A stretch of DNA of 64,000 nt. It comes from Candidatus Propionivibrio dominans. GTDB lineage: Bacteria > Pseudomonadota > Gammaproteobacteria > Burkholderiales > Rhodocyclaceae. The position numbers and the translations under genes are program-made. Below the pieces are notes generated by a model that did not search any database, was not told the origin of the DNA, and was given only the letters and a program-made list of their open reading frames with translations. Of this stretch, positions 1 to 11,258 are shown piece after piece. The first letter of the stretch is position 1, and each line of letters begins with the position of its first letter. The DNA lies in contig JADJNC010000013.1 of NCBI GenBank assembly GCA_016709335.1, forward strand, positions 53,553 through 117,552, in the 5' to 3' direction.

Positions 1-2236
1 CGGCGACAGGAAGCCGGATTTGCGTTCGTTGTTGAGCGAGAACGACAACCATGGCGAATAGATAATCGGCACGCCAAGGAAATACACCGTGCCGTCCGTT
101 CCATCAGCCACTTCGCGGTCGTAGTCGAGCTTGAGCGTGTCCGCCCTGGCATACCAGTCGTCATTGCCCGGCGCGCAAGTGGTGTAGGTTCCATTCGTCA
201 GCCTGAACTGGTTCTCGCCCTCGAAATCGATACGATCCGCTTCGCCGCGCGCCTCCGTCATTATCGGACCCTTCTGCTTGGTTGGATCGAACTTGGTCTT
301 GCCGGGCTTGATATTAAGTACGCGCGGGCTGGCAAAACCCGAAGAAAGCCAGGAATCGTCACCTTCCTGTTCAGCAAATTGCGCCGCATAAGCCTTATCG
401 GCCGCCGCCTTGCTTCCCGGCAAGGGCTGACGTTTTATCGTATACGCAGGCTGCTCGAAAAAACCGACCTGATCTTCGACCTTGAGACGCAGCTTTGGTC
501 CGGTGATCAGATCGTCGCCTTGTTCAAGGCGAACATTGCCCTCGGTGGCACGGCGCTATCGCTCGCTAGCGGCTCCATGGTTTTTGAGGAACGCAAGGCG
601 AGCGCTGGCAAGACGTCGGGGACGTCGGGAACCTGATCCTCGTCGCGCCAGCCCGTTGCCGCGACGAGCGGGGGAACCGTTTCCTCGGGCGAAACCAGGC
701 GAGCGTTTGAACCCGCCTCGAGAACCGGGCCATAGGGCACCCGCTGGCGTTCAAGCGGCGTAGCACTGCCGAAGGCCATTTGCGTCGGCTCTGGTTGAAC
801 CGGGCGCGCCGGCGTACCGATGGCCTCGCCGGTCTTGCCCAATTCCCACTTGGCCCAGATAAAGAGGACGTTGCCGCCATTACTGCCACCGGGGGGAACG
901 TAAGTTCCTTCCAGACTGAAGTTCTTGTAGGCCACAGAGGCCACCGGCAGAACGATTGGAAAGGGGACATAGCTGAGGACGTCCGAGCGCGACATCAGGC
1001 CGGCAATATAGCCCAATCCCAGGCGTACATCATCGGCCGGACGCCAGATGGCTTTCCAACTGTAACCCCCGGTATAAGACGGTTTGTAGTGCGAATCCTG
1101 GAAACCCATGGCGAAGACGCCTTCCCAGTTCCCCCTCTCGTTGTACAAGCCACGGCCGATACCAAAGCCGAGCGGGTTTTCCTGATAGGAGTCGATCTGT
1201 TCTTGGGTATACGTGCTGCGCGAATGGTAGGTTTTAAACGGCAGATAAAATTCAAGTGCGCCATTGTTGAAGGCATTGGCCACCGGATCCCAGATGCGCC
1301 GCAGCCAGCTTTTGTCCGGGGGCTTTTGCGCAGTGGCCGGTTTTGACGCCACGCTTGCAGCACTTCCGCCCGATGCGGCTGGAACCGACGACACCACCGC
1401 GCCCGGCGCCGAACCGGCTTCCCTGGTCACATCTGATGGCTGGGATGAGACTGTCGGCGCTGTCGGTGCTGCCGGAGCCGCTGGGGCTGTCCGAGCCACT
1501 GGGGCCACTGGGGCCGGCGGCGACCAGAGCAGGGCAGGGTCGACACGCAAGGGTGCCAACGTGGAAACTTCCGGGCGAGATGATGGCAATGACGAAGCGG
1601 CAGGAGCTTGCTGCTGGGCAACGGGCGCTGGAGCCAGCGTTTGCACTGGCCGTACGGGCTCTGGCACCGAAGGCACGGGTTCCGGCTGTTTCGCCGTCTG
1701 CCACGCGGGTGCAACAGGCGCCGCCTGACGCTCCTCATCACGAGGGCTGCGCGCCGGCGCCACACTTGCTGGCGATGCGGTTTCTGGCGGGGCTGGGGCC
1801 GGTGCTGGTGCTGGTGCCGTGTCGATGCCGGTGCCGGTGCCGGTGCCGGGGCTGGTGAAGGTGCTGGTGAAGGTGAAGGTGAAGGAGTGAGCACTGGCGC
1901 CGCTTGCGGTGCGACAGCAGGCTGCGGAATCTCCTGCGCCGAAGGCTGGCTGGGCCTGGCCGGCCTGCTGGCCTCAGCTTCAGTCTCAACCGGCCGTTTG
2001 TCGACGACTGTAGCCTCAACCGGCTGCACCTCGACACTCGTTTTTCTGGCTGGAATCGAGGCAGGAGCGGGCGCTTCCGCCGGCTTTATTGGCGGCAAGC
2101 CGAGTAATGCCGGATCAACGCGCAAGGGCTCAGGAGCTTGCGCCCGCGTCTCAGCGGCATAGGTGCCGACAAGGAAGAACGCAAAACCGTAGCACAGGAG
2201 CAACGCGAGTGGTTTGCGCCGGGCAGGAAAATTCAT
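1..2236 (-). CDS. lptD: LPS-assembly protein LptD, partial, with an inserted PagP-like domain; two frame breaks
   Basis: Outer-membrane LPS translocon subunit; the C-terminal barrel lies beyond the window start. Order from the N-terminus: a signal peptide (hydrophobic residues about 9-27), a Pro/Ala-rich linker that repeats the motif LRVDPALL twice, a PagP-like barrel (about 1310-839), a second linker, then the OstA/LptD jellyroll (about 620-1) with EGNVRLEQGDDLITGP, TYTTCAPGNDDWYA and a run ending NNERKSGFLSP. The frame breaks near 1830, inside hexamer repeats, and near 550. Each is repaired by restoring one base, after which linker, PagP and jellyroll read through without a stop. There is no start, Shine-Dalgarno or signal peptide for a separate pagP. 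It is divergent from amgK, as usual in Rhodocyclales. The LptD identity is secure; that the fusion is expressed is inferred. Confidence 0.88.
839..1310 (-). other. PagP-type lipid A palmitoyltransferase domain inside lptD
   Basis: This stretch encodes about 155 residues that line up with PagP along its whole mature length. Shared landmarks are EFYLPFKTYHSR, NPLGFGIGRG, GNWEGVFAMGFQDSHY, WRPADDVRLGLGY, PFPIVLPVASV and NGGNVLFIWAKW. The three residues known to be needed in E. coli PagP are kept: His (codon 1224-1226), Asp (1095-1097) and Ser (1092-1094). PagP moves palmitate from phospholipid to lipid A in the outer leaflet. Both ends of a PagP barrel face the periplasm, so insertion between the LptD signal peptide and jellyroll is topologically possible. 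Confidence 0.87.
1790..1886. repeat. Short tandem repeats coding a Pro-Ala linker in lptD
   Basis: Tandem units ggtgct, gccggt and ggtgaa fill this stretch and encode alternating Pro-Ala/Pro-Ser on the minus strand. The lptD reading frame shifts by one base here: the signal-peptide frame enters the tract and the PagP frame leaves it. A slippage-prone tract at this place could be a real phase-variable switch or a sequencing error. Confidence 0.75.
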
Positions 2237-5410: not shown

Positions 5411-6581
5411 TGGCTCCTCACTCCCTACGCCTCACTCCGAAGTGATCACCGACGTGCTCATCGTCGGCGGCGGCCCGGTCGGCATGACGCTCGCGCTGGC
5501 TCTGGCCGACAGCGCGCTGCGCGTGCTGCTGATCGACAGCCGCCCGTACGGCGCCTGGGCCGACGACCCGCGCGCGCTGGCGCTGGCCCACGGCAGCCGG
5601 CAACTACTCGAACGCCTGAACGTATGGAACGCTCCCGCCGCCACTGCGATTCGCGAAATCCACGTTTCACAACGTTCCGGCTTCGGCCGCACGCTGATCG
5701 ATGCCGAGGACTATGGCATGCCGGCACTCGGCTACGTCATGCGCTACCGCGATCTCGCCGCCGTTCTTGCCGCCCGCATCAAGCCGGAGCAACTGATAAC
5801 CCGGTGCAGCATCGACAAAATGGAAACCGGCAACGACAATGCCACCGTGACGGTTACGCACGAAGGGGCAGCACGGCGCATCACGGCAAAGCTCGTCGTG
5901 CATGCCGAAGGCACACCGGGCAGTGACCCCGACGTCAAGGTACATGACTATGGCCAGCACGCCATCGTTGCCGAAGTCCGCCCGACACCAGCGCACAAGC
6001 AGCGTGCCTGGGAACGTTTTACGCCCGACGGGCCGCTGGCCCTGCTGCCGCTCGGCGCGGACTACTCGCTGGTATTCACGGTTCCGCCCGACAAGTCCGC
6101 CGCATTGCTCAAGCTCAGTGATGAGGATTTCCTTGCGGCGTTGCGCGAGCAGTTCGGCAAGCGCCTCAACTTTACGGCTAGCGGCCCGCGCGCTTCTTTC
6201 CCGCTGGCATTGCGTGTCCGGCAGCAGATCACAGGGCAACGACAGGTGTGGATCGGCAACTGCGCACAAACCCTGCACCCTGTTTCCGGCCAGGGCTTCA
6301 ATCTCGGCCTGCGCGACGCCTGGGAACTGGCAACAGCGCTGCTTGACCACGGCGCTGGCGATCCCGGTGTCCCGACAGCTTTAGCCGCCTACGCGCGCGG
6401 CCGCCGGATTGACCTGCGCGGCAGCATGGCCTTCACCGACAGCATCGTCCGCCTGTTCTCCAATGACATTCCTCCCCTCCGATTCGCCCGCGGCCTCGGC
6501 CTTCTCGCGCTCGACCTCTACCCGCCGCTGCGCCACTTCGTCGCCAGGCGCATGATCTGGGGTGCGCGGGCATGGCCTTGA
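5403..6581 (+). CDS. ubiH: UbiH/COQ6-family FAD-dependent ubiquinone hydroxylase
   Basis: Flavoprotein monooxygenase of ubiquinone ring hydroxylation, 392 aa. The N-terminal Rossmann motif is VLIVGGGPVGMTLALALA. The second FAD motif appears as QTLHPVSGQGFNLGLRDA, with the conserved GQGFN-LGL block. The GTG at 5403 is chosen because it puts the dinucleotide fold about 17 residues in and gives a short overlap with pepP; an open frame upstream lies inside pepP and is not conserved. The pepP neighbour favours UbiH over the paralogues UbiF, UbiI or UbiM, but ring-position specificity cannot be read from sequence. Confidence 0.88.
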
Positions 6582-6905
6582 GCATTTCCAGAATGCTAGA
6601 AAAAATTCAGCAGGGTCGGCCTGTGATTGGCATCAACATCCACCACAAAGACACAGCGGTGCAGAAGTAGCGTAAGTAAGAGCGCGGGATGAGCAGAGTA
6701 GTCCCTTTCAACCCCGGTCTGTTCTCTGCCCCACCGGGTTTGCTGCGCGGCACGTTTTCTCCTGGTCTGCGCCGCGCTGCCATTTCTCCGTTCGCCTCAA
6801 CAGCGGGTGTAAGGCACTGAAATCGAACCGATCCAAGCAGTTAACAAATTGACTATTTATCAGGCAACAATCAAGGTAGAATTCTCCCCTTCCCCCGCCA
6901 TACCT
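6582..6905. other. Intergenic region upstream of dusB-fis
   Basis: These 324 bases hold no convincing gene. The last 60 bases are A/T-rich and contain TTGACT and TAGAAT boxes, but their 22-base spacing is too wide for a sigma-70 promoter. The dusB-fis operon is heavily regulated in enterobacteria; nothing comparable can be claimed here. Confidence 0.5.
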
Positions 6906-7955
6906 ATGCACTCCACCCCCATGGAATTCGTCGGCTTTACTCTCAAAAACAATCTGTTTGTCGCACCGATGGCGGGCGTCACCGACCGGCCTTTCCGCCA
7001 GTTGTGCAAGAAGATGGGTGCCGGACTGGCGGTCTCCGAAATGGTCACCTCCAACTCCCTGCTTTACGGCAGCGCCAAGACGCAGCGGCGCGCCAATCAC
7101 GATGGTGAGGTCGAGCCGGTATCGGTGCAGATCGCCGGCTCGATCCCGGCGATGATGGCCGACGCCGCACGCCACAACGTCGAGCGCGGCGCGCAGATCA
7201 TCGACATCAACATGGGTTGCCCGGCCAAGAAAATCTGCAACGTGATGGCCGGTTCCGCGCTGCTGAAGGACGAGCCGCTGGTCGGACGGATTCTCGAAGC
7301 CGTGGTCAATGCCGTGCCGGGAACGCCGGTCACCCTGAAAATTCGCACCGGCTGGGACCAGGCCAACCGCAACGCGCTCACCATCCTGAAAATCGCCGAA
7401 CAGTCCGGCATCCGCGCCCTGGCCATGCACGGCCGCACACGCGCCTGCGGCTACAGCGGGCAGGCCGAGTACGAGACCATCGCGGCCGTCAAGGCCGAGG
7501 CACGCATCCCGATCATTGCCAATGGCGACATCACCTCGCCGGAAAAAGCCAAGCGGGTACTTGAACTTACGGGCGCCGATGCGCTGATGATCGGCCGTGC
7601 CGCCCAGGGTCGCCCCTGGCTGTTTCGCGAGATCGAGCATTTCCTGAAAACCGGCACGCACCTGCTTCCGCCGCGCGTCAACGAAATCCACGACATCCTG
7701 CTCGCGCACCTTGAAGACCTCTACGCGTTCTACGGCATCGAAACCGGCGTGCGTGTCGCACGCAAGCACATCTCCTGGTACACCAGGGGTCTGGCGGGAT
7801 CGGCCGCCTTCCGACACGGGATGAACCAGTTGCCGGACAGCAAACGGCAACAACAGGCGGTCAATGACTTTTTCTTCAGTCTCGCCGAACAGAATGAACA
7901 TCTGTACTACAGCGAATCGCAAAACAATGATGACAGTGAGGGGCTCGCCGCATGA
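6906..7955 (+). CDS. dusB: tRNA-dihydrouridine synthase B
   Basis: FMN-dependent TIM-barrel enzyme that reduces specific uridines in tRNA to dihydrouridine. The N-terminus reads APMAGVTDRPFR. The catalytic Cys lies in NMGCPAKKICN, and the flavin phosphate-binding region includes MIGRAAQGRPW. The ATG at 6906 is chosen; a second ATG five codons on (6921) is equally possible because neither has a clear Shine-Dalgarno. The open frame extends to a TTG at 6849 but that part is unconserved. The stop overlaps fis by four bases, the conserved dusB-fis arrangement. Confidence 0.94.
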   Translation: MHSTPMEFVGFTLKNNLFVAPMAGVTDRPFRQLCKKMGAGLAVSEMVTSNSLLYGSAKTQRRANHDGEVEPVSVQIAGSIPAMMADAARHNVERGAQIIDINMGCPAKKICNVMAGSALLKDEPLVGRILEAVVNAVPGTPVTLKIRTGWDQANRNALTILKIAEQSGIRALAMHGRTRACGYSGQAEYETIAAVKAEARIPIIANGDITSPEKAKRVLELTGADALMIGRAAQGRPWLFREIEHFLKTGTHLLPPRVNEIHDILLAHLEDLYAFYGIETGVRVARKHISWYTRGLAGSAAFRHGMNQLPDSKRQQQAVNDFFFSLAEQNEHLYYSESQNNDDSEGLAA

Positions 7956-8188
7956 GACAAAACAATGACATTTCGGCCTGTATCTATGGTGCGCTGGAAA
8001 CCTACTTCAAGGATCTGGATGGCGAAATGCCTGCGCCAATCTATGACATGGTACTCAAGAGTGTCGAGTGCCCGATGTTTGAAGTCGTTCTCAAGCAAGC
8101 CGGCGGCAACCAGAGACTGGCCGCCGAAATGCTTGGCATCAACCGCAACACCCTGCGCAAGAAACTCGTCGATTACAAGCTGGTTTGA
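7952..8188 (+). CDS. fis: DNA-binding protein Fis
   Basis: Small nucleoid-associated and regulatory protein, 78 aa, the short betaproteobacterial form (98 aa in E. coli). The C-terminal helix-turn-helix is intact: [22 protein letters not shown]. The N-terminal activation region is shorter than in enterobacteria. Translation is probably coupled to dusB through the ATGA overlap. The strong C-terminal match leaves little doubt. Confidence 0.95.
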
Positions 8189-8219
8189 ACAATCCTTGAA
8201 CCCGAGAAATGACAAAATC

Positions 8220-9785
<1,566 letters not shown>

Positions 9786-9815
9786 CCCTTTGCATGTCAA
9801 GGAGTCATAAGCACA

Positions 9816-9856
9816 GAGTAAGGAGTAGAATCCACCTTCACACTCGCTCCTTACTC
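9816..9856. repeat. 10-base inverted repeat between purH and purD
   Basis: The arms gagtaaggag (9816-9825) and ctccttactc (9847-9856) are perfect complements around a 21-base loop. There is no T-tract after it, so it is not a clear terminator. It may be a small intergenic repeat or an mRNA hairpin ahead of purD. Confidence 0.6.
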
Positions 9857-9881
9857 ATCACTTACTCCACTGTCTGACACC

Positions 9882-11161
9882 ATGAAATTACTCGTCATTG
9901 GCTCCGGCGGACGCGAACATGCGCTGGCCTGGCACCTGGCCAAAACATCCGGCCTGCAGAAAATCTACGTTGCTCCGGGCAACGCCGGAACGGCGCGTGA
10001 ATCCGAGCTGGAAAACATCAACATCACCGACCCGCAGGCGCTCGCCGATTTCGCCGACAAGGAAGGCATTCACCTGACGCTCGTTGGCCCGGAAGCGCCG
10101 CTGGCCGCGGGAGTCGTCAATATCTTCCGGGCCCGCGGGCTGAAAATTTTTGGCCCCACCAGGGAAGCGGCACAGCTCGAAAGCTCGAAGGATTTTGCCA
10201 AGCGCTTCATGGCGCGGCACAAGATACCGACGGCAGCCTTTGCCACCTTCACCGATCGTGCCGCCGCGCACGCCTACGTCGATCAGCAGGGCGCGCCGAT
10301 CGTCATCAAGGCCGACGGGCTGGCGGCCGGCAAGGGCGTCGTCGTTGCCATGACGCTGCCGGAAGCCCACCGCGCCATCGACTCCATGCTTCCCGGTAGC
10401 ACGCCGGCAGCAGCGGGCAGCAAGACCGGCGCACGTATCGTCATCGAGGAGTTTCTGGAAGGCGAGGAAGCCAGCTTCATTGTCATGGTCGACGGCAAGA
10501 ACGTTCTCCCGCTCGCCTCCAGCCAGGATCACAAGCGCATTGGCGACGGCGACACCGGCCCCAATACCGGCGGCATGGGCGCCTATTCACCGGCCCTGGT
10601 CGTCACTCCGGCCGTCCATGCCCGGGCGATGCGCGAAATCATCCTGCCGACCGTGCGCGGAATGTTTGCCGACGGCATACCCTATACCGGCTTCCTTTAC
10701 GCCGGCCTGATGATCGGCAAGGGCGGCTCGGTGAAGACGGTTGAATTCAATTGCCGCATGGGCGACCCGGAAACGCAGCCGATCATGATGCGCCTGAAGT
10801 CCGACCTGCTGACGCTGCTCGAACATGCCGTAGCCGGCAAGCTCGACCAGATCGATGCCGAATGGGACCGCAGGGTGGCACTGGGCATCGTGCGGCTGCC
10901 GCCAACTACCCCGACACGCCACGCCAGGGCGATGTCATCAGTGGCCTGCCGGACGAGAGTGAGGACATGCACGTATTCCATGCCGGAACAGCCGAACGCA
11001 ACGGCAAGATCGTTACTTCGGGAGGCCGCGTGCTGTGCGTCACCGCCCTCGGCGACAACGTCAGGCAGGCGCAGAAACACGCTTACGATGCACTGGCCGG
11101 CATTCACTTCGACGGCATGCAATACCGTCGCGACATCGGGCATCGCGCGCTCACACGCTAG
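9882..11161 (+). CDS. purD: Phosphoribosylamine-glycine ligase, one frame break
   Basis: ATP-grasp ligase of the second purine step. It begins [17 protein letters not shown] and keeps [41 protein letters not shown] and [12 protein letters not shown]. The frame breaks at about 10891-10900: the first frame becomes Arg/Thr-rich, while a second frame continues [18 protein letters not shown] to the stop at 11161. Restoring one base gives 426 aa, close to E. coli PurD (429). A single-base sequencing deletion is more likely than a mutation, since the gene is essential for purine prototrophy. Confidence 0.93.
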
Positions 11162-11171
11162 ACACGGAAGA

Positions 11172-11258
11172 TGCTTCACCACCAAGTCACCAAGAACACC
11201 AAGAAGCACCAAGTATTTTCATTGGGTTTCTTGCTGAAAACTGGTGCCTTTTGTGGAT
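11172..11258. repeat. CACCAAG-type intergenic repeat, copy 1
   Basis: Multiple CACCAAG/CACCAAGAA units are followed about 40 bases on by partly complementary CTGGTG and TTTGTGG sequence, forming an imperfect inverted repeat between purD and hemF. Related copies lie near 24548 and 44612. All sit between genes. Confidence 0.65.

Follow-up and report, generated by a model that had tools for sequence, protein, structure and literature searches.

A PagP domain inside the lptD gene

We analysed 64,000 nucleotides of Candidatus Propionivibrio dominans (hereafter the window; assembly GCA_016709335.1, contig JADJNC010000013.1, positions 53,553 to 117,552), which open with the 5' part of a gene for LptD, the outer-membrane exporter of lipopolysaccharide (LPS), running off the window edge. 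The preliminary description of this DNA, made from its letters alone, had read a complete domain of the lipid A acyltransferase PagP, with its active-site His, Asp and Ser, behind the LptD signal peptide and ahead of LptD proper. Profile searches and alignment agree with this placement: the domain matches PF07017 with 169.2 bits (cut-off 24, E = 4.8e-50) and NF008271 with 183.7 bits (cut-off 155). The adjoining LptD piece matches NF002997 with 64.4 bits on its last 141 residues (1–423), a partial length that falls below the cut-off of 683 because LptD is too short in the window; the LptD family PF04453 has no profile match on this piece, which holds part of LptD only. Intact relatives do pass the LptD profile cut-off, as in genome G001 (330.5 bits vs. 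22.4).

In Propionivibrio sp. MAG-195 (locus L001) the entire fusion lies in one 1338-residue frame (5533–9549) followed by surA, in the order signal peptide, Pro/Ala linker, PagP, disordered linker and LptD, and in Ca. Propionivibrio aalborgensis the same fusion is spread over two contigs whose ends encode the same PagP stretch. Without its signal peptide, the L001 protein has a calculated mass of 142 kDa. PagP sits within the lptD frame of L001, with neither a gene nor an evident signal peptide of its own. In line with the earlier reading, no second signal peptide stands out more widely: in 36 of the 37 fused proteins that have a complete N-terminus, the signal peptide contains a more hydrophobic stretch than any in the linker. 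We therefore speak of a PagP domain and not of a PagP gene.

To gauge how far such proteins spread, we searched a large protein collection for relatives of L001 residues 1–560, scoring only the 7992 candidates that share the most words with the query. Among the 83 relatives retrieved, 66 have matches to both PF07017 and PF04453, and the other 17 to LptD families only; the source names of the fused proteins are inconsistent, some records calling them "PagP" and others "LptD". Two of the proteins retrieved (P0052 and P0063) are named as those of Rhodocyclus tenuis, a cultured environmental phototroph. Across 249 genomes sampled from the family of G001, LptD was found in 242 and PagP above its cut-off in 43, in 8 of which PagP lies in an open frame of more than 1000 residues. 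In these eight genomes, as in G002, the sole LptD match falls in a frame whose length equals that of a frame with a PagP match, and the profile search gave no second PagP match in any of the eight; in G002 a contig end cuts the fused frame, which yields two PagP matches on two contigs. PagP also exceeded its cut-off in 57 of 399 genomes sampled from the order and 15 of 369 from the class, and in these samples, which rare fusions could escape, no PagP frame above 1000 residues was found beyond G001 itself. The PagP-LptD fusion is real, and its bearers belong to a single branch of environmental bacteria akin to Propionivibrio and Rhodocyclus. Two separate genes in all relatives, the opposite outcome named in the preliminary description, is contradicted by the unbroken L001 frame, by the 66 of 83 relatives and by the 8 of 249 genomes whose only PagP lies in their only LptD, and the fusion interpretation is supported. 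The coordinates of all features in the window are collected in Table 1.

Table 1. Features of the lptD fusion gene and of the purH-purD region in the window
Feature	Position	Strand	Basis or remark
lptD fusion gene, 5' part	2236–1	minus	cut by window edge
Start codon and signal peptide of the lptD fusion	2138–2236	minus	start MNFPARRKP also in L001; cleavage placed by eye
First LRVDPALLG motif	2099–2125	minus	directly behind signal peptide
Six-base tandem repeat within Pro/Ala linker of lptD	1788–1885	.	
Second LRVDPALL motif	1524–1550	minus	intermediate between linker and PagP
PagP domain (N-terminal amphipathic helix and eight-stranded barrel)	837–1316	minus	profile matches, alignment, predicted fold of L001
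Catalytic His codon (equivalent of E. coli His33)	1224–1226	minus	alignment
Catalytic Asp-Ser codons (equivalents of E. coli Asp76-Ser77)	1092–1097 (Asp 1097–1095, Ser 1094–1092)	minus	alignment
Ser at E. coli Gly88 position, presumed hydrocarbon-ruler floor	1059–1061	minus	alignment
Linker from PagP to LptD jellyroll	546–836	minus	comparison with L001
Site of ~146 bases absent relative to the relative's gene	545–546	.	frame change here
Remainder of LptD jellyroll and start of barrel	1–543	minus	96% identity to L001 residues 604–784; NF002997 on 1–423
purH	8220–9785	plus	separate pagP comes next in many relatives
purH-purD gap, 96 bases, without pagP	9786–9881	.	presumed ancestral pagP place
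purD	9882–11237	plus	

Several other long frames were inspected as candidate fusions and set aside. Six long LptD frames (G092, G250, G214, G215, G110 and G024) have only LptD-family Pfam matches, and their surplus residues resemble, on reading, out-of-frame sequence of the divergent upstream kinase gene. The long N-termini of some separate PagPs (e.g., G033 and G156) are likely upstream read-through, with purH ending directly before them. Separately, eight order-level genomes (G269, G396, G358, G315, G602, G491, G576 and G343) have PagP in open frames of 389–539 residues, perhaps as extensions or read-through.

Conservation of the fused PagP domain

The catalytic residues of E. coli PagP, His33, Asp76 and Ser77, are retained throughout the alignment of fused domains: His in all 74 rows with a letter at that position, and Asp, Ser and also Arg114 in 75 of 75. 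Nonsynonymous (dN) and synonymous (dS) substitution rates for the PagP domain are 0.0027 and 0.048 between the window and L001, and 0.068 and 0.61 between L001 and P. aalborgensis. At the level of sequence, these values and residues demonstrate purifying selection on the PagP domain of the fusion with its active site retained, and the fused domain is likely an acyltransferase.

Which acyl chain it would transfer is a separate question. The position of E. coli Gly88 presumably sets acyl length as the floor of the hydrocarbon ruler, and in the 75 fused rows it holds Gly in 50, Gln in 8, Ser in 6, Ala in 4, Glu in 4, Thr in 2 and Ile in 1, compared with Gly in 20 and another residue in 10 of the 30 separate PagPs. 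L001 and the window both have Ser there, so the chain need not be palmitate, and because the ruler residue varies, acyl length may vary between species.

Predicted structure, linkers and the LptD part

The predicted model of L001 consists of a PagP barrel and an LptD barrel with a disordered linker between them (mean predicted local distance difference test score, pLDDT, 70.1; predicted template modelling score, pTM, 0.52), with pLDDT below 50 at residues 164–253. Structure comparison matches its PagP fold to 3gp6 and 1thq, and the LptD part comprises the periplasmic jellyroll and large barrel expected of an LptD. Among the 66 fused database proteins the PagP-LptD linker spans 54–194 residues (median 96), a length that would allow the two barrels to lie next to each other. 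In E. coli both ends of the PagP barrel are periplasmic, as is the LptD jellyroll, so that a tether is compatible with known topology.

An LptE gene was found in 14 of 14 genomes. The LptD core holds two Cys (L001 residues 726 and 1278) in 63 of the 66 fused database proteins and one in the other 3. E. coli LptD has two long-range disulphides; with two Cys only in its core, the fused LptD can form at most one, and these Cys presumably correspond to one of the E. coli pair.

Ahead of PagP, two LRVDPALLG-type motifs are present in 30 of the 37 fused proteins with a complete N-terminus. Three motifs of the PLRVDPALLG(LPP) type also occur in the unfused LptD of G022, and weaker words resembling it lie near the mature N-terminus of some other family LptDs; it may be a binding motif.

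A proposed two-barrel exporter and its alternatives

Intact, conserved, single-copy fused proteins exist, as judged from genome and database sequence; that both barrels fold in one uncut chain, that the domain is catalytic, and where and when it acts, we infer. In the mechanism that we propose, one signal peptide would export the whole two-barrel LptD chain, in which the Pro/Ala-rich linker with its two LRVDPALLG motifs would lead into a PagP barrel that is complete; ~100 disordered residues would then link it to the jellyroll in the periplasm and to the large barrel of LptD. Both barrels would then stand side by side in the outer membrane with the linker in the periplasm, and the PagP barrel would move an acyl chain from an outer-leaflet phospholipid to the lipid A of LPS fresh from LptD. 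The enzyme would be made with its exporter and fixed at about one per exporter. We consider acylation near the LPS exit with outer-leaflet phospholipid as donor the most likely form of this activity. Palmitoylation of LPS upon its insertion, as the preliminary description proposed, would agree with the retained active site and the topology. We put at roughly 0.68 the probability of this reading as a whole, namely a two-barrel LptD whose tethered PagP acylates lipid A at the LPS exit and which had a single origin followed by losses. More tentative, at slightly under even odds, is a stronger version in which the catalytic barrel on LptD would acylate each LPS at the lateral gate with a misplaced phospholipid, which would entail constitutively acylated LPS, clean-up of phospholipid at the insertion site, and two barrels per chain presented to the barrel assembly machinery (BAM).

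The linker itself bears on whether the chain stays whole. Its length, its predicted disorder and its variability between relatives would suit a polyprotein, in which a periplasmic protease cuts the low-complexity linker into free PagP and LptD and the fusion serves joint expression only. Neighbouring genes would suffice for co-expression, however, no cleavage site was seen, although no search was aimed at one, and linker stretches such as RVPYGP and RDEEEVPD appear in the alignment consensus of 63 sequences, so we regard cleavage into two working proteins as unlikely.

A structural or regulatory role, with the enzymatic one gone, is another way to read the tether: the PagP barrel might stabilise LptD, guide its assembly by BAM, or sense misplaced phospholipid, as the single barrel per exporter, the variable ruler residue and the missing second PagP match in the eight fused family genomes could suggest. 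Catalytic His, Asp and Ser that are invariant in 74, 75 and 75 fused rows would be needless for pure structure, however, and LptDs without a PagP domain persist in sister lineages, which makes this account improbable.

Evolutionary history of the fusion

To reconstruct how the tethered acyltransferase arose, we built trees of both parts. The PagP tree holds 106 domains (75 fused, from 66 database proteins and 9 genomes; 30 separate; and E. coli), and one branch parts all 75 fused domains from the 30 separate ones and E. coli, with a Shimodaira–Hasegawa-like approximate likelihood ratio test (SH-aLRT) value of 86. The LptD tree holds 104 cores, 24 of them fused (the 9 genomes and 15 of the 66 database proteins), and places every fused row in one starred clade of 50 rows mixed with unfused ones: 23 labelled as without PagP (6 genomes and 17 database proteins, for which the label covers the protein and not the pagP state of its genome) and 3 genomes with a separate pagP. 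On this tree the fused or unfused state needs 9 changes, and the hypothesis that all fused LptDs form one clade is rejected (approximately unbiased test, p-AU = 1.3e-05, quick tree). In four aligned pairs of fused and unfused proteins, PagP and part of the flanking linker are absent in frame from the unfused partner, which retains its N-terminal motifs and a portion of the later linker.

One fusion followed by several losses fits these data best, because the fused PagPs form one clade while fused and unfused LptDs are intermingled on their tree; a single origin in Propionivibrio/Rhodocyclus ancestry is probable, with several later losses in frame, and horizontal exchange may be part of this history. 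Several independent fusions would account for the 9 changes and for the scattering of fused LptDs, but are distinctly improbable given that all fused PagPs group together apart from the others, that the fusion point lies at the same protein position in the aligned cases, and that unfused partners keep the N-terminal motifs and part of the linker.

Between the window and L001, dS also differs along the gene (PagP 0.048, LptD piece 0.286, linker 0.174), and the P. aalborgensis contigs break within PagP as well. The low PagP dS might stem from strains having recently exchanged the PagP segment.

Gene neighbourhood and damage to the window copy

In stretches holding lptD, genes for a kinase, a MurU-like and a PepP-like protein are divergent to lptD-surA in 8 fused and 4 unfused genomes. 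Separate pagP genes were followed in 12 unfused loci chosen by hand and not at random: they lie between purH and purD in 8 of 10 family loci (G129, G033, G150, G068, G044, G115, G156 and G162) and in both order-level loci, with none of the marker genes near pagP in G248 and G127. Within the window the purH-purD gap contains no PagP match. The gap is readable in 5 of 8 fused genomes (purH lies outside the searched stretch in G001 and G173, and G027 was left out of the gap reading), measuring 76 bases in G061, 39 in G111, 91 in G197 and 27 in G107, and 1,890 bases, again without a PagP match, in G146 (L141, 5452–7341).

The window copy of lptD is spread over three frames. The first frame change falls between 1886 and 1766, in or beside the six-base tandem repeat, and the second coincides with the loss of ~146 bases relative to the closest relative. 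As a result the window lacks ~49 residues from the beginning of the jellyroll, which the six best-matching database relatives possess. The edges of this segment in the relative share no common word longer than 5 bases, so that a simple repeat collapse is not indicated, and because LptD is essential in E. coli, an assembly fault seems likelier than a deletion in the organism. The preliminary description had held that the gene reads as one protein once single bases are restored; one protein it is, by way of its intact relatives, but single bases do not suffice where ~146 are absent. That frame errors or misassembly joined two adjacent genes, as the repeat-associated frame change and the missing bases might suggest, is refuted for the family and has a negligible chance overall, given the unbroken fused frames in other genomes and databases and a separation of pagP from the lptD barrel in unfused genomes of 8.8–11.8 kb (10 of 11) or 2.3 Mb (G044), which leaves no neighbours at hand to be joined by accident.

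Discussion

Several observations weigh against a two-barrel LptD with a working, once-acquired PagP. The window copy itself is broken. With a pTM of 0.52 the relative placing of the two barrels in the model is not fixed, and cleavage of the linker could release PagP. The ruler residue differs from Gly in 25 of 75 fused rows as against 10 of 30 separate ones, which makes palmitate doubtful for many. Support for the single fused PagP clade is moderate, with long branches nearby, and the unfused partners of the four aligned pairs differ in their linkers too, so excision was not always clean. In G033, LptD is nested among fused rows yet is unfused, with a separate pagP at the purH place whose product does not group with the fused PagPs, a pattern that requires a retained second copy or horizontal exchange. 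Finally, the domain was apparently lost in several lineages, which would make it dispensable.

PagP and LptD are each well known. Free-standing E. coli PagP (1thq, 1mm4, 3gp6) shares with the fused domain a helix and eight-stranded barrel, the catalytic His, Asp and Ser, and 36–37% identity over structural alignments, but the fused PagP lacks its own gene or an evident signal peptide and is joined to the N-terminal side of LptD, each exporter carrying one copy. The jellyroll and large barrel are also found in the LptD of E. coli (9kn3, 4q35) and of N. gonorrhoeae (7omm), with LptE in the genome and two core Cys in the fused LptD as further points of likeness; in the fused LptD an additional enzyme barrel precedes the jellyroll, and the Pro/Ala linkers are long. 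In a literature search of titles and the beginnings of abstracts, we found neither a description of a PagP-LptD fusion, in keeping with the preliminary statement that none was known, nor a lipid A structure of a fused species; papers that speak of PagP domains or PagP fusions concerned expression tags or unrelated proteins. Multi-barrel outer-membrane proteins are reportedly the subject of Solan et al. (PNAS 2021), where the PagP-LptD fusion may be listed. A parallel is GfcD, which PMC11494523 presents as a multi-barrel outer-membrane protein with predicted 12- and 13-strand barrels, proposed to release a lipid-anchored polymer sideways. GfcD resembles PagP-LptD in having two membrane barrels per chain (here predicted) and in the proposed sideways release, and differs in the barrels that are joined.

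For the biology of this branch, the conserved natural tether suggests that export and acylation belong together. E. coli PagP is generally taken to act upon a breach of outer-leaflet asymmetry, and E. coli LptD is slow to fold. PMC7617971 gives E. coli PagP as scarce, at less than 0.1% of outer membrane protein, and PMC8954225, a genome paper that also cites work on LPS, gives C16:0 as 33–36% of Rhodocyclus fatty acids. The annotation of fused proteins under either name, "PagP" or "LptD", is a warning to those who search by name. As a natural construct, the fusion offers a means of asking at which site on the cell surface lipid A receives its acyl chain, whether phospholipid enters the outer leaflet when LptD is inserted, and how a single chain with two barrels is folded by BAM.
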